NCBI RefSeq assembly: GCF_013839445.1
Contig: NZ_JACDIT010000007.1
Coordinates: 1-64,000, forward strand
DNA length: 64,000 nucleotides
Reading direction: 5' to 3'
Origin: Chthonobacter albigriseus
Lineage (GTDB): Bacteria; Pseudomonadota; Alphaproteobacteria; Rhizobiales; Pleomorphomonadaceae
The notes beneath the pieces were generated by a model. The model was not told the DNA's origin and ran no database searches. It saw only the letters and a program-made list of their open reading frames with translations. A program made the position numbers and the translations under genes. Positions 6,513 through 32,539 of this stretch are shown here, one piece after another (within the stretch, counting starts at the first letter, position 1; each line of letters begins with the position of its first letter).

Positions 6513-7226
6513 GTGGGCGCTTCTTCGTCTCAGGTGCGAGGTCGCTTGGTTTGCCTGGACCGGGCATTACGGCAGTTCGCGGCAAAGGCGGGGTTCGATC
6601 CGAACCAGCCTCGGGTGCCGCGCGGTCAGGCCGGCGGCGGCCGGTGGACGGATGCCGACGGACCTGCGGGCGGCGCTTCCTCCACGGGCGATGGGACGAG
6701 GCCCATCGTCCTCGCCCAGTCCAGACCGCGCGGCGGCATGGCCGGGCGGTCCGGCCAAATGGTCTTCACTGGCACGCCGCAGCAGGTGCCCGGAGAGATC
6801 CCTTTGCGACCGATGGGTTTCCCGAGCGAAGCGGCCTACGCCCGTTTCGTCCGGAGCGCCTACGACGAGTTGTCCGCGCTGGGCTATCCCAATGCGCTCA
6901 TCGGGATTCGGGGCAGCGCGGCGACGGGCTTCAGCTATCGGACCGGCCGGGCGTTCAACGACTCTTCGACGAAGCCGAGCGACATCGACCTCGCCATCAT
7001 CAGCCGAGACCTCTACGAAAGGATCGCAGTGATCGCACCGAGGCGGGTCAACAGCAAACAAGGTCGCACGGATCCACTGAAGTCCAGCGATGAATTGACA
7101 GTAGACCTCGGTATAGCGGACATCATTTTGCGAGCAAGATCGGGAACCGGTCAGCCTTCCTCGATCGTCGTCTATCGAGATCTGCAGACCTTTATTGACC
7201 GTCGATTTTTCGTAGCTGTGGAGTGA
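6513..7226 (+). CDS. Candidate nucleotidyltransferase-fold toxin
   Basis: Protein of 237 residues starting at GTG. Residues about 27-46 (FDPNQPRVPRGQAGGGRWTD) match a linker that I know from rhizobial phage-associated and polymorphic-toxin proteins, just before the C-terminal effector. Residues 100-237 look like a nucleotidyltransferase fold: GIRGSAATGFSY (G134-S135) followed by SDIDLAIIS (D157, D159), the GS...DxD metal/nucleotide pattern. No signal peptide is visible. The next gene starts 3 nt after the stop and is a small acidic protein, a toxin-immunity layout. A weakly conserved paralogue lies at 8415-9020. Toxin function is inferred from architecture and pairing; an MNT-type antitoxin or tRNA-modifying enzyme is the main alternative. 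Confidence 0.55.
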   Translation: MGASSSQVRGRLVCLDRALRQFAAKAGFDPNQPRVPRGQAGGGRWTDADGPAGGASSTGDGTRPIVLAQSRPRGGMAGRSGQMVFTGTPQQVPGEIPLRPMGFPSEAAYARFVRSAYDELSALGYPNALIGIRGSAATGFSYRTGRAFNDSSTKPSDIDLAIISRDLYERIAVIAPRRVNSKQGRTDPLKSSDELTVDLGIADIILRARSGTGQPSSIVVYRDLQTFIDRRFFVAVE

Positions 7227-8414: not shown

Positions 8415-9020
8415 ATGTCCGACCTGAGCGAAGCGGCGCATTGGAAAAATCTGGAGCAGGAAATCGGCTATCGCGAGTTCGTTGCGGCCTTTCAAACCGG
8501 CTGCCTGGGGCGACGCCAATCGAACGGTGATGACAGGGGTTCCAAGGCCGGGCTTCCCCGACCTGTCCTTTCCCGGGTTCTCGGGGAGTATCGCCCCTTC
8601 CTCAACGAGGTTCCGCTGCTGCCCTTCGGGTTCCGATCTGCGGAGGCGTATGTCGGCTTCGTCACCGAATGCCACCGCCTTCTGCGGGAGAACGGCCAGC
8701 CACACGTCCTCGTCGCCATCCGGGGCGGAGGCGCAACAGGGTTCAGTTACGGTACCGGCCGAGTGTTCGACGATGACTGCGGCTATGAACTCGCCGTTGT
8801 CGGGCGGAGTCTCTTCGATCAAGCCAAGACCCTGGAACGATCCTACAGCACCGATCAGCGGACCTGTCCGATCAGAGAAAGATCGGCGGTCGCCTACGGC
8901 CTTGGGCTGAACGATCTTTTGACGGCTCTACGGGGTATAGCTCGGAGGGACATCAGCCTCATCATCCTTCGAGATTTAGCGGCGCTCGCAGCCCGTGGCC
9001 CTTTCACTGTCCTGGAGTAG
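8415..9020 (+). CDS. Degenerate nucleotidyltransferase-like protein
   Basis: Protein of 201 residues and a clear paralogue of the 6513-7226 product: PLLPFGFRSAEAYVGFV aligns with PLRPMGFPSEAAYARFV, and AIRGGGATGFSYGTGRVF with GIRGSAATGFSYRTGRAF. The catalytic region is altered: the GS pair is GG, and the DxD is G123-Y-E125, with a four-residue shortening before it. The FDPNQPRVP-type linker is absent. The fold may be kept without catalysis. It is followed after 5 nt by an immunity-like gene. It could be an inactivated toxin cassette kept with its immunity gene, or a protein with a binding role. Function is not known. Confidence 0.5.
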   Translation: MSDLSEAAHWKNLEQEIGYREFVAAFQTGCLGRRQSNGDDRGSKAGLPRPVLSRVLGEYRPFLNEVPLLPFGFRSAEAYVGFVTECHRLLRENGQPHVLVAIRGGGATGFSYGTGRVFDDDCGYELAVVGRSLFDQAKTLERSYSTDQRTCPIRERSAVAYGLGLNDLLTALRGIARRDISLIILRDLAALAARGPFTVLE

Positions 9021-13268: not shown

Positions 13269-14744
13269 GTGACCGATCTCACCGACCTGACCATTGCCGA
13301 GGCCCGCGACGGGCTGAAGGCCAAGCGCTTCACCGCAACGGAACTGACCGAGGCCTACATCGGCGCCGTCGAGCGCGGCCGGTCGCTTAACGCCTACGTC
13401 GTGGAGACGCCGGAGAAGGCGCGGGCCATGGCCCGTGCTTCGGACGAGCGGTTCGCCCGCGGCGAGGAGCGGCCGCTGGAAGGCATCCCGCTCGGCATCA
13501 AGGACCTGTTCGCCACCGAAGGCGTGCACACCCAGGCCTGCAGCCACATCCTCGACCGATTCAAGCCCGCCTACGAGAGCACCGTTTCGGCCAACCTCTG
13601 GGCTGACGGCGCGGTGATGCTCGGCAAGCTCAACATGGACGAGTTCGCCATGGGCTCGTCCAACGAGACCAGTCACTACGGGCCGGTGACCAACCCTTGG
13701 CGCCGGCAGGGCTCCAACGCGACGCTGGTGCCGGGCGGCTCGTCCGGCGGGTCCGCGGCGGCGGTGGCGGCGCGGCTCTGCGCCGGGGCGACGGCCACGG
13801 ACACGGGCGGCTCGATCCGCCAGCCGGCCGCCTTCACCGGGACGGCCGGCATCAAGCCGACCTATGGCCGCTGTTCGCGCTGGGGCATCGTCGCCTTCGC
13901 CTCCTCGCTGGACCAGGCGGGGCCGATCGCCCGCGACGTGCGGGATACCGCGATTCTCCTGAAATCGATGGCCTCGGTCGACCCCAAGGACACCACCTCC
14001 GTCGACGTGCCGGTGCCCGACTACGAGGCGGCGATCGGCCAGTCCGTCAAGGGGCTGAAGATCGGCGTTCCCCGCGAGTACCGGCTGGACGGGGTGCCGG
14101 CCGAAATCGACGCACTCTGGCAGAAGGGGATCGACATCCTTCGGGATGCCGGGGCGGAGATCGTCGACATCTCGCTGCCGCACACGAAATACGCGCTGCC
14201 GGCCTACTACATCGTGGCGCCGGCGGAGGCCTCGTCCAACCTCGCCCGCTACGACGGCGTGCGCTACGGCCTGCGGGTGCCGGGCGACGACATCGTCGAC
14301 ATGTACGAGCGGACTCGTGCGGCCGGCTTTGGCGAGGAGGTGAAGCGCCGCATCCTGATCGGCACCTACGTGCTCTCGGCCGGCTACTACGACGCCTATT
14401 ATCTGAAGGCGCAGAAGGTCCGCACGCTGATCAAGCGCGACTTCGAGGCCGTCTACGCGAACGGGATCGATGCCATCCTGACGCCCGCCACACCGTCCGC
14501 CGCCTTCGCGATCGGCGAGAAGGCCGGCGCGGATCCGGTGGAGATGTACCTCAACGACGTGTTCACCGTGACGGTCAACATGGCCGGACTGCCGGGGCTC
14601 GCCGTGCCGGCCGGGCTTTCATCGGAAGGGTTGCCGCTCGGCCTGCAGCTGATCGGACGGCCATTCGACGAGGAGACGCTGTTCCGCGTCGGCAGCGCCA
14701 TCGAGGCGGCGGTGGGAACGTTCGCTCCGGCGAAATGGTGGTGA
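13269..14744 (+). CDS. gatA: Asp/Glu-tRNA amidotransferase subunit A
   Basis: Protein of 491 residues starting at GTG, the amidase subunit of GatCAB. The amidase signature region shows the catalytic Lys in [10 protein letters not shown], the [13 protein letters not shown] stretch with the cis-Ser, and [11 protein letters not shown] with the nucleophilic Ser. It releases ammonia from glutamine for transfer by GatB. It forms an operon with gatC; the usual direct neighbour gatB is displaced downstream. Confidence 0.97.
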
Positions 14745-14873: not shown

Positions 14874-14902
14874 TTGACAAAAACGACACCTGTTTGCATG
14901 CT
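14874..14902 (+). promoter_or_regulatory. Candidate sigma-70 promoter
   Basis: TTGACA at 14874-14879, 17-bp spacer, CATGCT at 14897-14902. It lies 64 bases before the first PGP-CTERM-like gene. The same TTGACA-N17-CAT pattern is seen before the third gene of the trio (16433), supporting a shared promoter design. Not tested. Confidence 0.45.
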
Positions 14903-14965: not shown

Positions 14966-15409
14966 ATGCTGAAGATGGCTGTGATGGCATCATTTGTTGC
15001 TGCAGGTCTTCTCGCGAGCGATCCGGCCGGTGCGGCCGGATCCTGCACGACGCCGCTGGCCGGCGGGCAGTGCACGGGGTTCAGCAGCGTGTCGGATTTC
15101 TACAGCTACATCTCGGGCACCGGGCTTTTCAGCTCCTTGGCTGGCCTGACCCAAACCCTAGGCTTCGGACAGCTGCCGGGGACCTATTTCTTCACGGCCA
15201 CGATCAGTGCTGTCACGGCGCTGAACTCCGCGACGACGTCCGTCACCACGACCGGGACCGGTTTCACGGTGCCCGGTTTCATCGCGGACAACTTCAGCGC
15301 AAGCAACACGGTTGCCGTTCCCGGGCCGGAACTCGGTGGGCTGTCCGTTGTCGCCGCACTCGCCGCCTTCGGTCTTTATCGGCGGCGCCGGCAGCAGCTG
15401 GCCGCCTGA
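14966..15409 (+). CDS. Secreted protein with PGP-CTERM-like signal (1)
   Basis: Protein of 147 residues from the ATG at 14966 (ribosome site GTGAGG). It has a signal peptide (MLKMAVMASFVAAGLLASDPAGAAG, cleavage likely after AGA), a Ser/Thr/Gly-rich secreted body and a tripartite C-terminus: PGPELGG, a hydrophobic segment, then YRRRRQQLAA. This resembles PEP-CTERM-type sorting signals recognised by exosortase-like enzymes in other Gram-negatives. Two further genes of the same design follow. No exosortase gene is in the window. The body (CTGFSSVSDFYSYI) resembles that of gene 2 (CSGFTNTVDFYNFI), so the two are paralogues. Role unknown. Confidence 0.6.
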   Translation: MLKMAVMASFVAAGLLASDPAGAAGSCTTPLAGGQCTGFSSVSDFYSYISGTGLFSSLAGLTQTLGFGQLPGTYFFTATISAVTALNSATTSVTTTGTGFTVPGFIADNFSASNTVAVPGPELGGLSVVAALAAFGLYRRRRQQLAA

Positions 15410-15645
15410 AGCCATCCTACGAGGTCGGGATGCTGGCGGGACGGCGGCTTGCTTCGTGAACCTCAGGCGCTCGGATGCGGGTGGCCGGAGCGGCGGGCGA
15501 GAGGTTCGTGAGGGGCGTGCTTTCGGACGACGGAGGTAGCGCCCGTAGCATGTGAACTTGGTAGCCTCTCTTTGCATGTGGTTCAAACGTTTCTGGCCAA
15601 CCGGCACTCGATGACTTCGGTGTGTAACAGTAATTTGGAGGGTCC

Positions 15646-16074
15646 ATGTTCAGGCAACTCGCTGCTGCAGCCGTTCTGACGTCCGGCCTTGCTGCTACTG
15701 CTCCTGCAAATGCTGCAGGGACCTGCACCTTTTCGTTGCCGATAGGGTGCTCCGGCTTCACCAATACGGTCGACTTCTACAATTTCATCAAGACGACCTA
15801 TTTCCCAATCTGGAGCGGTACGAACCAGACCTTCGGGTTCCTGCAACTGGCTCTTCCCAACCCGCTCGTCATCACCGCTTCCGTCGCCGTTGCGACGTCC
15901 GGCCAAGTCTCGACATTCACGACCATCGGCGCGGGCGTGAACGCATTTAACGGCCAGTCCACTTCGATCAACGAAGTCTTCGCCGTTCCGGGTCCGGCGA
16001 TCGGCGGGTTGCCGGTCATCGCAGGCATGGTCGCCTACGGTTTCTATCGGCGCCGCCGGGCCGTGGCGGCCTGA
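15646..16074 (+). CDS. Secreted protein with PGP-CTERM-like signal (2)
   Basis: Protein of 142 residues: signal peptide (MFRQLAAAAVLTSGLAATAP, cleavage near ANAAG), a body paralogous to protein 1 (CTFSLPIGCSGF, VDFYNFIKT, QTFGFLQL), and the C-terminus [20 protein letters not shown] followed by RRRR. Two conserved Cys close to the N-terminus of the mature part are shared with protein 1. It is followed by a strong terminator, so it appears to be expressed alone or with protein 1. Function unknown; cell-surface or exported after C-terminal processing is the inference. Confidence 0.6.
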   Translation: MFRQLAAAAVLTSGLAATAPANAAGTCTFSLPIGCSGFTNTVDFYNFIKTTYFPIWSGTNQTFGFLQLALPNPLVITASVAVATSGQVSTFTTIGAGVNAFNGQSTSINEVFAVPGPAIGGLPVIAGMVAYGFYRRRRAVAA

Positions 16075-16099
16075 GGGCGGGACAAGGCTTCGATCTGTC

Positions 16100-16141
16100 C
16101 GATCGGCCGGGGAGAACGCCTCGGCCGATCGTTGTTTTCGC
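16100..16141 (+). terminator. Intrinsic terminator
   Basis: CGATCGGCCG (16100-16109) pairs with CGGCCGATCG (16122-16131), 12-base loop, followed by TTGTTTTCG. Sits 25 bases after the second PGP-CTERM-like gene. Confidence 0.75.
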
Positions 16142-16432
16142 GACCGCGCTCGAAGCGCAGCCACCTTCTGGGGCGGGGCCGTCCTCCGGGCGCAGCGGAG
16201 ATGCCGCTGCAAACCGCGATTTCCTCGCCGGCCTGATTCGACGGTCGGCCGGCGCCAGACGGGGCGAGGCTGGCGGGATGGGTTGCGACCCTATCGGGCC
16301 CACCAGCGGTCGAAAAAATCCTTCGACGGGCAGGGGGCGGGTAAGTTGCTGAAACTACTTCGAACTCAAAATATGGCGGATTCTCGCGGGGTGTGCGGTG
16401 CAACCGAAGGACATTTCAACGTGAATCTCGCG

Positions 16433-16461
16433 TTGACAGACTCAACGGCATTAAACATAAA
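16433..16461 (+). promoter_or_regulatory. Candidate sigma-70 promoter
   Basis: TTGACA (16433-16438), 17-bp spacer, CATAAA (16456-16461), in a locally AT-rich stretch upstream of the third PGP-CTERM-like gene. The remaining ~290 bases between 16142 and 16432 show no gene. Confidence 0.5.
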
Positions 16462-16483
16462 AGCTAGAGGCGTAGGGTCGTGA

Positions 16484-16502
16484 GTCCCGGGAGGCCCGGG
16501 AC
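16484..16502 (+). repeat. Perfect hairpin in 5' leader
   Basis: GTCCCGGG-AGG-CCCGGGAC, eight-base arms and three-base loop, located about 23 bases after the candidate promoter and 47 bases before the start codon at 16549. No T-run follows, so it is unlikely to terminate; it could protect the mRNA 5' end or bind a protein. Confidence 0.5.
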
Positions 16503-16548
16503 TATTGGTGCGGCTCATTTGTTTCTGACAGCAATTGGAGTCAAACAA

Positions 16549-17100
16549 ATGATGAAGACATTGAGCGCAGCCACCGTTGTGGCAGTTGGGCTCCTGAGCT
16601 CCGGCTCGGCGTTCGCTCAGGTCGTCAAGGATGGAACCTTCGAGCAGTTCCTTGCGAACGGCACGACTCCGTGGAGCACGGGCGGCAACGCAACCGTCGA
16701 GCTGGGTGCCAACGGCAACATCTTCGATTTCGGCCAGATCACGCAGACCCTCACGGATGCCGTGGTGGGGCAGGTCTACAACCTGACCGTTTCGCTCGGG
16801 AAGACCAATCTCACCAGCCTCTACGGCACCAACAACTTCCTGTCGGTCTTCTACGGCGGGTCGAACCTCGGCAACTACGTCGCGTCTACGCTGCCGACGA
16901 CGCTGAGCACCAGCTTCACGGCGATCGCCGGTGGCTCGCTCCGCTTCGTGGGCGACAGCGGCAACGAGTTCGTCTCGTTCACCGTCGACGACGTGAAGAT
17001 CACCGCTATTCCGGGGCCGATCGCCGGCGCCGGGCTTCCGGTCATCGCGGGGATGATCGCCTACGGCTTCTACCGTCGCCGGCAGCAGATCGCCGCCTGA
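16549..17100 (+). CDS. Secreted protein with PGP-CTERM-like signal (3)
   Basis: Protein of 183 residues. The ATG at 16549 follows a GGAG site at 8 nt, excluding the longer reading from 16480. Signal peptide [20 protein letters not shown] ending SAFAQ. The mature part ([57 protein letters not shown]) has the look of a DUF642-like, galactose-binding-type beta-sandwich. The C-terminus is [20 protein letters not shown] then YRRRQQ, nearly the same as in protein 2, though the body is different. Anchoring or sorting by the shared tail is inferred. Ends at a strong terminator. Confidence 0.65.
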
Positions 17101-17126: not shown

Positions 17127-17166
17127 ATCGGCTGCGGAGCGATCCGCAGCCGATTTCGTTTTCGCG
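17127..17166 (+). terminator. Intrinsic terminator
   Basis: Twelve-base perfect stem (ATCGGCTGCGGA at 17127-17138 with its complement at 17143-17154), four-base loop, then TTCGTTTTCG. Ends the transcript of the third PGP-CTERM-like gene and insulates gatB. Confidence 0.85.
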
Positions 17167-17257: not shown

Positions 17258-18739
17258 ATGACCGCCGCCGTCAGAACGCCCGACCCGAAGAAGTTGATCA
17301 AGGGCGCCACCGGCGACTGGGAGGTCGTCATCGGCCTGGAGGTGCATGCCCAGGTCACCTCCCAGTCCAAGCTGTTCTCCGGTGCCTCGGCTGAATACGG
17401 CGGGGCGCCGAACGCGCACGTCAGTCTGGTCGACGCCGCGATGCCGGGCATGCTGCCGGTGATCAACGAGGAATGCGTCGCGCAGGCAGTCCGCACCGGT
17501 CTGGGGCTGAAGGCGGCAATCAACCCCTATTCGGTGTTCGACCGGAAGAACTACTTCTACCCGGATCTGCCGCAGGGCTACCAGATCAGCCAGTACAAGC
17601 AGCCGATCGTCGGGGAAGGCGTGGTGGTCGTCGACCTTGCCGACGGCACGTCGATCGAGGTCGGGGTGGAGCGGCTTCACCTGGAGCAGGACGCCGGCAA
17701 GTCGATCCACGACCAGCATCCGACCATGTCCTTCGTCGACCTGAACCGGTCGGGCGTGGCGCTGATGGAGATCGTCTCCAAGCCGGACCTGCGGTCTTCG
17801 GAGGAGGCCAAGGCCTATCTCTCCAAGCTCCGGACCATCCTTCGCTATCTCGGCACCTGCGACGGCAACATGGAGGAGGGCTCGCTTCGGGCCGACATCA
17901 ACGTCTCCGTCCGCAAGCCGGGCGCGCCGCTCGGCACGCGCTGCGAGATCAAGAACGTCAATTCGATGCGGTTCGCGGGTCAGGCGATCGAGTACGAAGC
18001 CCGCCGGCAGATCGCGATCCTGGAGGATGGCGGCTCGATCGACCAGGAGACCCGGCTCTACGATCCCGGCAAGGGGGAGACGCGGTCGATGCGCTCCAAG
18101 GAGGAGGCGCACGACTACCGCTACTTCCCCGACCCCGACCTGCTGCCGCTCGAACTCGATCCTGCCTGGATCGAGAGCCTCAAGGCACACCTTCCCGAGC
18201 TTCCCGATGAGAAGAAGGCCCGGTTCGTCGCCGACTACGGCGTCACCACCTACGACGCCATGGTTCTGACGCTGGAGCGCGCCTCGGCGGACTTCTTCGA
18301 AAAGGTTGCCGCCGGACGGGACGGCAAGGCCGCGGCGAACTGGGTGATCAACGAACTGTTCGGCCGCCTCAACAAGGAGGGGCTCGGGATCGAGGAAACC
18401 CCCGTTTCGGCCGAACAGCTGGGCGCGATCGTCGACCTGATCCAGGACGGGACCATCTCCGGCAAGATCGCCAAGGACCTGTTCGAGATCGTCTGGACCG
18501 AAGGGGGCGATCCGAAAGCGCTGGTCGAACAGCGGGGGCTGAAGCAGGTCACCGACACCGGTGCGATCGAGAAGGCCGTCGACGAGGTCATCGCCGCCAA
18601 CCCGGACAAGGTCGAGCAGGCCAAGGCCAAGCCGACGCTGGCCGGCTGGTTCGTCGGGCAGGTGATGAAGGCAACCGGCGGCAAGGCGAACCCGCAGTCC
18701 GTCAACGATCTGGTCAAGCGCAAGCTCGGCATCGAGTGA
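17258..18739 (+). CDS. gatB: Asp/Glu-tRNA amidotransferase subunit B
   Basis: Protein of 493 residues from the ATG at 17258; the ORF could be extended upstream but that part overlaps the preceding terminator region and lacks family similarity. Key regions: [13 protein letters not shown], the [18 protein letters not shown] motif, [17 protein letters not shown], and the C-terminal helical YqeY-like tail ([18 protein letters not shown]). It phosphorylates the mis-acylated tRNA and accepts ammonia from GatA. It must use its own promoter or read-through because two terminators lie between gatA and it. Confidence 0.97.
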
Positions 18740-32529: not shown

Positions 32530-32539
32530 TTGACAGGAT

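Follow-up and report, generated by a model that had tools for sequence, protein, structure and literature searches.

The window analysed here is the whole stretch of 64,000 nucleotides at the start of contig NZ_JACDIT010000007.1 of Chthonobacter albigriseus (assembly GCF_013839445.1). Between gatA and gatB it carries three genes on the + strand, T1, T2 and T3, whose small, predicted secreted products all have a signal-like N-terminus (by eye) and end in a tail of V/I-PGP..G.., a helix and an Arg cluster (RRR), as an initial annotation of the window had described. The same annotation took the tail for a sorting signal served by an enzyme encoded elsewhere. This is supported by two divergent exosortase-like genes (TIGR04178) on other contigs, and by tails and enzymes of one clade that occur together, often side by side, in other genomes. 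From these sequences we consider it very probable that the three proteins are substrates of an unnamed exosortase subtype with unlinked enzymes; trio and enzyme together have the appearance of a surface-sorting system for proteins that annotation has so far passed over. Genomes, contigs, loci and proteins are labelled by G-, C-, L- and P-numbers, W02 denotes a replicon, and G000 is the genome under study.

A PGP tail on secreted proteins

T1 (14966..15409, + strand) encodes 147 amino acids with two Cys in the body, T2 (15646..16074, +) 142 and T3 (16549..17100, +) 183. Their tails lie on the + strand at 15317..15406 (VPGPELGG...RRRR), 15985..16071 (VPGPAIGGLPV...RRRR) and 17008..17097 (...RRR), the last scoring best of the three against the tail profiles. 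All three open reading frames (ORFs) were confirmed, and the claim that two members are paralogous in the body holds: T1 and T2 are 40% identical at full length (E = 6e-24) and 39% identical over 87 residues without the tail (E = 2e-9). The body of T3 is unrelated to both by BLAST. Its likeness to T2 is confined to the last 34 residues (68%), and the 73 nucleotides coding for the tail are the sole DNA repeat common to the three genes. In a low-confidence single-sequence model (mean pLDDT 44) the T3 body consists mostly of strands. No relatives of T3 were found in viral contigs, and none of T1 or T3 on plasmids.

Tail profiles were made from three tails (A2) and then from six (A4). By these profiles G000 has seven tail proteins; besides the trio, contigs C15 and C1 encode two each. 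Among the 21 pairs of their bodies, only T1 and T2 align at E < 0.001 (BLAST). The consensus of 24 tails is approximately x-PGP-x-x-G-[AV]-G-L-P, followed by a short, mostly hydrophobic stretch and an Arg cluster; all 24 are free of Cys.

A survey of the order, with 199 genomes sampled, gave tail matches at E ≤ 0.01 in 12, and several tails were seen only in G000 (7) and G188 (6); two congeners of G188 had none at E ≤ 0.001. A class survey of 385 genomes gave one further clear tail, in G292. The number of candidates scored per genome was limited to 40 in the first survey and 21 in the second, and the tails of G129, G551 and G401 were missed, so that the negatives of both are weak. The weak survey matches were checked, L014 and L018 excepted, and the PGP..G.GLP motif is present in none of them; the proteins at L016 and L038 have PEP/VPLPA-like tails of another kind. 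A DNA-pattern scan of genome contigs matched 36 loci, in each case out of frame. L068 (B. elkanii) nevertheless has three true tails, one of them under the match, and the other 35 loci have no tail by a strict regular expression.

Comparison of the tails with known CTERM models, which the initial annotation had recommended, left the trio under every cut-off: no NCBIfam model reached its cut-off with the full-length proteins, and Pfam listed nothing for them. The 24 tails alone gave scattered weak matches to 19 models, most frequently LPXTG (13/24) and MYXO-CTERM (10/24). The full-length relative at L090 scored 18.7 bits with the LPXTG model (cut-off 15.9) and contains no LPXTG motif. Three of ten tail proteins were weakly similar to surface-protein families, all under cut-off. 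One G000 body scored 21.8 bits (cut-off 29) with the model of Npun_F0296 exosortase-dependent surface proteins, and one body from Rhizobium gallicum and one from Rhizobium sp. WL3 weakly resemble choice-of-anchor C and LEVG, respectively, under cut-off.

The divergent exosortase-like enzyme

A genome-wide collection of the tails combined with a search for an exosortase had also been recommended. Besides the seven tail proteins, it gave no match to PF09721 (EpsH) and two genes over the TIGR04178 cut-off of 23 bits (33.5 and 31.1 bits); the two enzyme copies lie at C16:228285-229085 and C19:109428-110246. The outcome named as refuting the sorting signal, tail-bearing genomes that lack a sortase-like gene, was thus not obtained. 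Both genes lie in polysaccharide clusters, on contigs other than that of the trio, and no enzyme is common to the surroundings of the tail genes in G000 and G188. Among ten genomes, TIGR04178 exceeded its cut-off twice in G000, once in G188 (28.7 bits) and twice in G058, and in none of the other seven, which include both tail-free congeners of G188. PF09721 is present in 13 of the 199 order genomes, and the tail-rich G000 and G188 are not among them.

Four enzymes, P0004 to P0007, score 30.1, 26.4, 25.5 and 24.4 bits with TIGR04178, all over cut-off, and 11 of 12 enzyme relatives match it at E ≤ 0.1. The four share Cys197, Asn240-x-x-Arg243 and His258-x-x-x-Gly262. The Cys, N-x-x-R and H-x-x-x-G are kept in all 12 relatives; among 31 divergent sequences used for a tree, the sole exception is Brady_G631, with Ser for the last Gly. 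Six residues are reported to be perfectly conserved in EpsH, in C-x-G, N-x-x-R and H-x-x-x-G (Haft et al. 2006, PMC1569441). Five of the six are kept here; the exception is the Gly of C-x-G, which all 12 relatives replace by Ser. The enzyme profile matched a profile of nine canonical exosortases with E = 3.3e-7 (probability 93%). By the TIGR04178 scores and the conserved residues the enzyme belongs to the exosortase/archaeosortase superfamily. PF09721 matched one of the 12 relatives, P0007, which lies outside the clade described below (E = 0.014; 15.2 bits, cut-off 25.7), and listed 0/11 clade members at E ≤ 0.1. Specific subtype models on P0004 to P0007 all stayed far under cut-off; over the 12 members the best was archaeosortase D (E = 1.1e-4). 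No solved structure was related to the enzyme profile at E ≤ 1.

A tree of 40 rows, nine canonical and 31 divergent, places the canonical rows in a clade with support of 99/98. All rows with a strict tail neighbour or with tails in the same genome, the second G551 enzyme excepted, fall in one clade of 19 rows, which also takes in four rows where no tail was seen. C-x-S is found in all 19 rows of this clade, and C-x-G in 9/9 canonical rows. The surroundings of the G188 enzyme (contig C4, L124) have low third-position GC (0.48) and contain, by eye, transposase-like ORFs and glycosyltransferases, which would fit recent acquisition.

Tails and the enzyme clade go together

At nine of the 19 loci of the clade, no more than 1.2 kb separates the enzyme from a tail gene: G292, G129, G551 (two tails), G401, Microvirga ossetica (two tails) and four Bradyrhizobium. 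A regular expression for the tail matched 11 of the 488 ORFs near the enzyme, against two among the 2130 more distant ones (Fisher p = 4.7e-7). Of the two distant matches, that in L147 is junk by eye and that in R. gallicum is a true tail. The same expression gave two matches in 2320 ORFs of 63 control loci, both helix-free by eye. On M. ossetica replicon W02 (NZ_CP016617.1), pairs of tail genes lie at 72261-72951 and 188034-188727, about 115 kb apart, and the second adjoins the enzyme; the two pairs may represent a duplicated module.

Twelve other divergent enzymes were also inspected, and three of their loci have a variant tail nearby (second G551 copy, G304 and Bradyrhizobium G606); one further near match at G304 looks spurious. 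The variants SPAPELSMGLVGL, APGPDFGLGA and APGPEIGDGM stand on small proteins at L149:10573-10746, L154:5343-5693 and L207:9310-9504, beside divergent enzymes outside the clade. They hint that the motif changes with the enzyme.

The same association was seen at the level of whole genomes. Among 36 genomes or records, tails were found in 10 of 12 with the enzyme clade (best match E ≤ 1e-8), in 0/7 with other divergent enzymes and in 0/17 enzyme-negative ones (E ≤ 1e-3). Two of the 17 gave marginal single tail matches (E = 0.0029 and 0.0083). Fifteen of the 17 are negative by the enzyme profile, and G579 and G580 by TIGR04178 only.

The pairing was also checked independently. A tblastn search of plasmids with P0004 gave three records. 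Two of them, from Rhizobium sp. WL3 and R. gallicum, were thus picked out by their enzyme only. Each carries four tails, none of them used in the profile, at distances of up to 30 kb from the enzyme; the replicons measure 0.70 and 2.39 Mb. For B. elkanii WSM2783 the tails came first, 11 in the genome; an enzyme was predicted and then found at 267.7 bits. The enzyme is present in 8 of 60 sampled Bradyrhizobium genomes, that of G606 falling outside the clade.

Several observations weigh against the trio being substrates of such an enzyme. The trio is linked to neither enzyme copy of G000. The nine adjacent loci are not all independent, since two Bradyrhizobium pairs are close relatives. The 17 enzyme-negative genomes were picked by hand, and the co-occurrence count is partly circular because 8 of the 10 tail-positive genomes supplied profile tails. 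G473 and G324 (74% complete) are clade-positive and no tail was found in them, and G058 has a divergent enzyme and partner with no tail by profile. Three of the eight Bradyrhizobium enzymes (G581, which is B. elkanii, G614 and G635) are tail-free in the flank fetched; in G581 11 tails lie elsewhere in the genome, and for G614 and G635 only the enzyme flank was covered. The tail-bearing clade has moderate support (84/87), and several branches are long. A simple hydropathy scan gave five to six strong transmembrane segments in 4/4 enzymes, and the canonical EpsH criterion is at least eight. Of 14 control genomes, nine gave a TIGR04178 match at E ≤ 1, and in three of them it exceeded the cut-off. 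Because these genomes match and the G292 enzyme was not listed, TIGR04178 matches alone mean little.

An alternative is that the tails are ordinary C-terminal membrane anchors, inherited or convergent and not processed at all. We find it improbable. In its favour, a helix followed by an Arg cluster could serve as an anchor, no enzyme gene is linked to the trio, and processing is a prediction; yet the PGP..G.GLP motif is nearly fixed on bodies that BLAST does not join, its sporadic spread tracks one enzyme clade, and tail and enzyme genes adjoin.

Partner protein and polysaccharide setting

A small protein, about 150 to 180 amino acids in most separate copies, in which two Cys are invariant across nine aligned members, is encoded 3' of the enzyme in 17 of the 19 clade loci, nine of which lay outside the partner model. 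It is absent at the second G000 copy and at G324. The two partners checked, P0008 and P0009, have an N-terminal transmembrane segment, and in M. ossetica enzyme and partner form a single ORF of 479 amino acids. NCBIfam matched 0/9 partner members, and Pfam at E ≤ 0.1 gave two unrelated weak matches only. This position and the fusion recall EpsI, which is reported to be encoded downstream of EpsH or fused to it (PMC1569441).

Wzz/GNVR proteins, glycosyltransferases and Wzy_C were found among the enzyme neighbours (ten neighbours scanned at six loci), and the WL3 enzyme lies inside an annotated polysaccharide cluster. In the one annotated record, that of WL3, the enzyme, the partner and 4/4 tail proteins are all named 'hypothetical protein'. 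Small VanZ-like membrane proteins lie near an enzyme or tail gene at L148:8685-9077, L202:8170-8526 and L209:819-1178, and WL3 has one annotated as VanZ family. VanZ was rejected as a constant neighbour, since it was seen at three loci only and a profile of the three found none at other enzyme loci; because no further copy turned up there, the link may be chance.

By the C-x-S motif, a moderately supported clade of its own and a partner of its own, the PGP form marks a separate subtype, as the initial annotation had suggested. The biofilm protein set that it also proposed stays conjectural. Judged by PF09721, C-x-G, the PEP motif, the EpsI models and the sigma-54 site, the enzyme/tail system falls outside canonical EpsH/PEP-CTERM.

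Proposed mechanism and acceptor

From the catalytic triad, the tail architecture, the gene context and the co-occurrence we infer an exosortase-like working of the enzyme. Each trio protein would be exported by Sec, to judge from its N-terminus. Its C-terminal helix would then keep it in the inner membrane and expose the PGPxxG.GLP motif on the periplasmic side. The Cys of the divergent exosortase, aided by Arg and His, would attack near the motif, and the helix would be cut off. The protein could then be handed over by transpeptidation and come to lie at the cell surface; its acceptor would probably be either a lipid of the membrane or something that the polysaccharide pathway makes. The two-Cys partner encoded downstream may assist, in the position that EpsI has beside EpsH.

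Cleavage might instead be due to a rhomboid or CPBP-type protease, acting on the Gly-rich helix as rhombosortase or myxosortase would, while the exosortase-like enzyme acts on other substrates. The start of the helix is rich in Gly/Ala, T1 is weakly GlyGly-CTERM- and MYXO-CTERM-like (under cut-off), and rhomboids are present. We rate this somewhat below the ordinary anchor, however, as the adjacency is with the exosortase-like gene, Cys is found in 0/24 tails, and rhomboids occur in 10/10 genomes with or without tails, in a search confined to rhomboids. A rhomboid was rejected as the cognate enzyme for its presence in all ten genomes regardless of tails.

For an exosortase subtype acting on the PGP tails, the acceptor may by analogy be a lipid, because archaeosortase A substrates are reported to be cut and lipid-anchored (PMC7157517); it may also be polysaccharide-linked. 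PGP-tailed proteins encoded beside the enzyme include tiny ones of 70-100 amino acids. A bolder proposal is a two-component sortase of rhizobia and other alphaproteobacteria, in which the C-x-S exosortase and the Cys-bearing partner would join PGP-tailed proteins to the lipid-linked or growing polysaccharide of the same cluster. We think it unlikely. If true, enzyme and partner would be a protein-to-polysaccharide ligase and would reveal an exosortase acceptor.

Bacteria of nodules and others associated with plants have these genes (Bradyrhizobium, Rhizobium, Microvirga), yet in WL3 they are 'hypothetical protein'. They would add a tag-enzyme pair to the exosortase superfamily in a clade that PF09721 passes over. 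Where a single enzyme has beside it a tag protein of only some 100 amino acids, nature offers a minimal pair in which the attachment target of an exosortase is directly testable. A literature search found neither 'PGP-CTERM' nor the tail strings tried, save two unrelated matches of one string, and an earlier mention may exist. Among the publications listed on exosortase, archaeosortase and CTERM/sortase, judged by titles and the starts of abstracts, none dealt with the PGP tail/enzyme pair.

The trio locus

The gaps 5' of T1, T2 and T3 are 221, 236 and 474 bp. The initial annotation had credited the genes with TTGACA-N17-CAT promoters of their own. Such promoter-like sites are present on the + strand 5' of T1 (14874..14902) and T3 (16433..16461), none was found before T2, and the pattern also occurs at 32530 in the window. 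No 9-mer is common to three or more of the upstream regions of the seven G000 tail genes. The two strong terminators that had been reported stand up well. They lie on the + strand 3' of T2 (16100..16138, also delimited as 16100-16131) and 3' of T3 (17127..17162, also delimited as 17127-17154), with folding z of -4.5 and -5.6, and 0/200 shuffles were as good in either case. A terminator scan of the region gave four sites against 2.9 expected, the stems after T2 and T3 being by far the longest, and none directly 3' of T1.

The gene before the trio (13269..14744, +) is presumably gatA, and gatB follows at 17258..18739 (+, start approximate). We take ruvX, the hydrolase and gatC of the window, like gatA, by their appearance rather than by family search. 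The window GatB shares about 78% identity with its counterparts in Shinella and Sinorhizobium, which points to an alphaproteobacterial genome. In the annotation of an S. meliloti replicon, ruvX, hydrolase, gatC and gatB follow one another as in the window, and the small gene that precedes gatB there is a different one; its gene table is incomplete and gatA is not in it. Because of that different gene the junction appears variable. The separation of gatA from gatB by the trio is real, though modest in meaning: the place seems to be one where gene content varies, and not a sign that the trio has to do with translation.

Elsewhere in the window, two + strand ORFs at 6513-7226 and 8415-9020 share a stretch like 'IRG..ATGFSY.TGR.F.D' (by eye). 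They are possibly a nucleotidyltransferase-like or toxin-like pair.

Comparison with known sorting systems

The PEP-CTERM/EpsH system is like the present one in many respects: a tripartite tail on diverse secreted bodies; a multi-transmembrane enzyme with Cys, Asn-x-x-Arg and His-x-x-x-Gly; polysaccharide loci; a small protein encoded after the enzyme or joined to it; and substrate genes with upstream gaps of more than 200 nt (PMC1569441). It differs in that the motif here is PGP..G.GLP and not PEP, the active site C-x-S and not C-x-G, PF09721 stays under cut-off, the partner is unmatched by the EpsI models (TIGR02914), and a sigma-54 site was seen neither in the 320 bp before the seven tail genes (regular expression) nor at the trio with one mismatch allowed. 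PEP-CTERM in the strict sense does not fit. That a canonical exosortase serves the trio as PEP-CTERM or VPLPA-CTERM proteins of the classical type is very improbable: the shared architecture, polysaccharide context and upstream gaps, and the few matches of tails alone to TIGR03370 (two of 24, best E = 0.0025) and TIGR02595 (two, best E = 0.014), are set against the absence of PF09721 from both tail-rich genomes, the sigma-54 sites not seen, and the full-length trio, for which neither model was listed at E ≤ 10, though program filters drop most matches above 0.1.

VPLPA-CTERM/XrtD shares the V-P-x-P start, the helix and the Arg cluster. It is set apart by TIGR03370, with the results just given, and by the XrtD model, which scored 20.2 bits on P0005 (cut-off 400). 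PGF-CTERM/archaeosortase A belongs to the same enzyme superfamily (TIGR04178) and has Pro-Gly in its motif; that system is archaeal, however, and TIGR04126 matched one of 13 tails (E = 0.11). For LPXTG, T1 scored 9.4 bits (cut-off 15.9), and the weakly matching tails contain no LPXTG motif. GlyGly-CTERM/rhombosortase and MYXO-CTERM/myxosortase have tail architecture of the same kind and an analogous role, whereas their enzymes are unrelated. T1 reached 13.2 bits with TIGR03501 of GlyGly-CTERM (cut-off 15.5), which was unlisted for T2 and T3, and 14.5 bits with MYXO-CTERM (cut-off 20), whose invariant Cys the PGP tails do not have.

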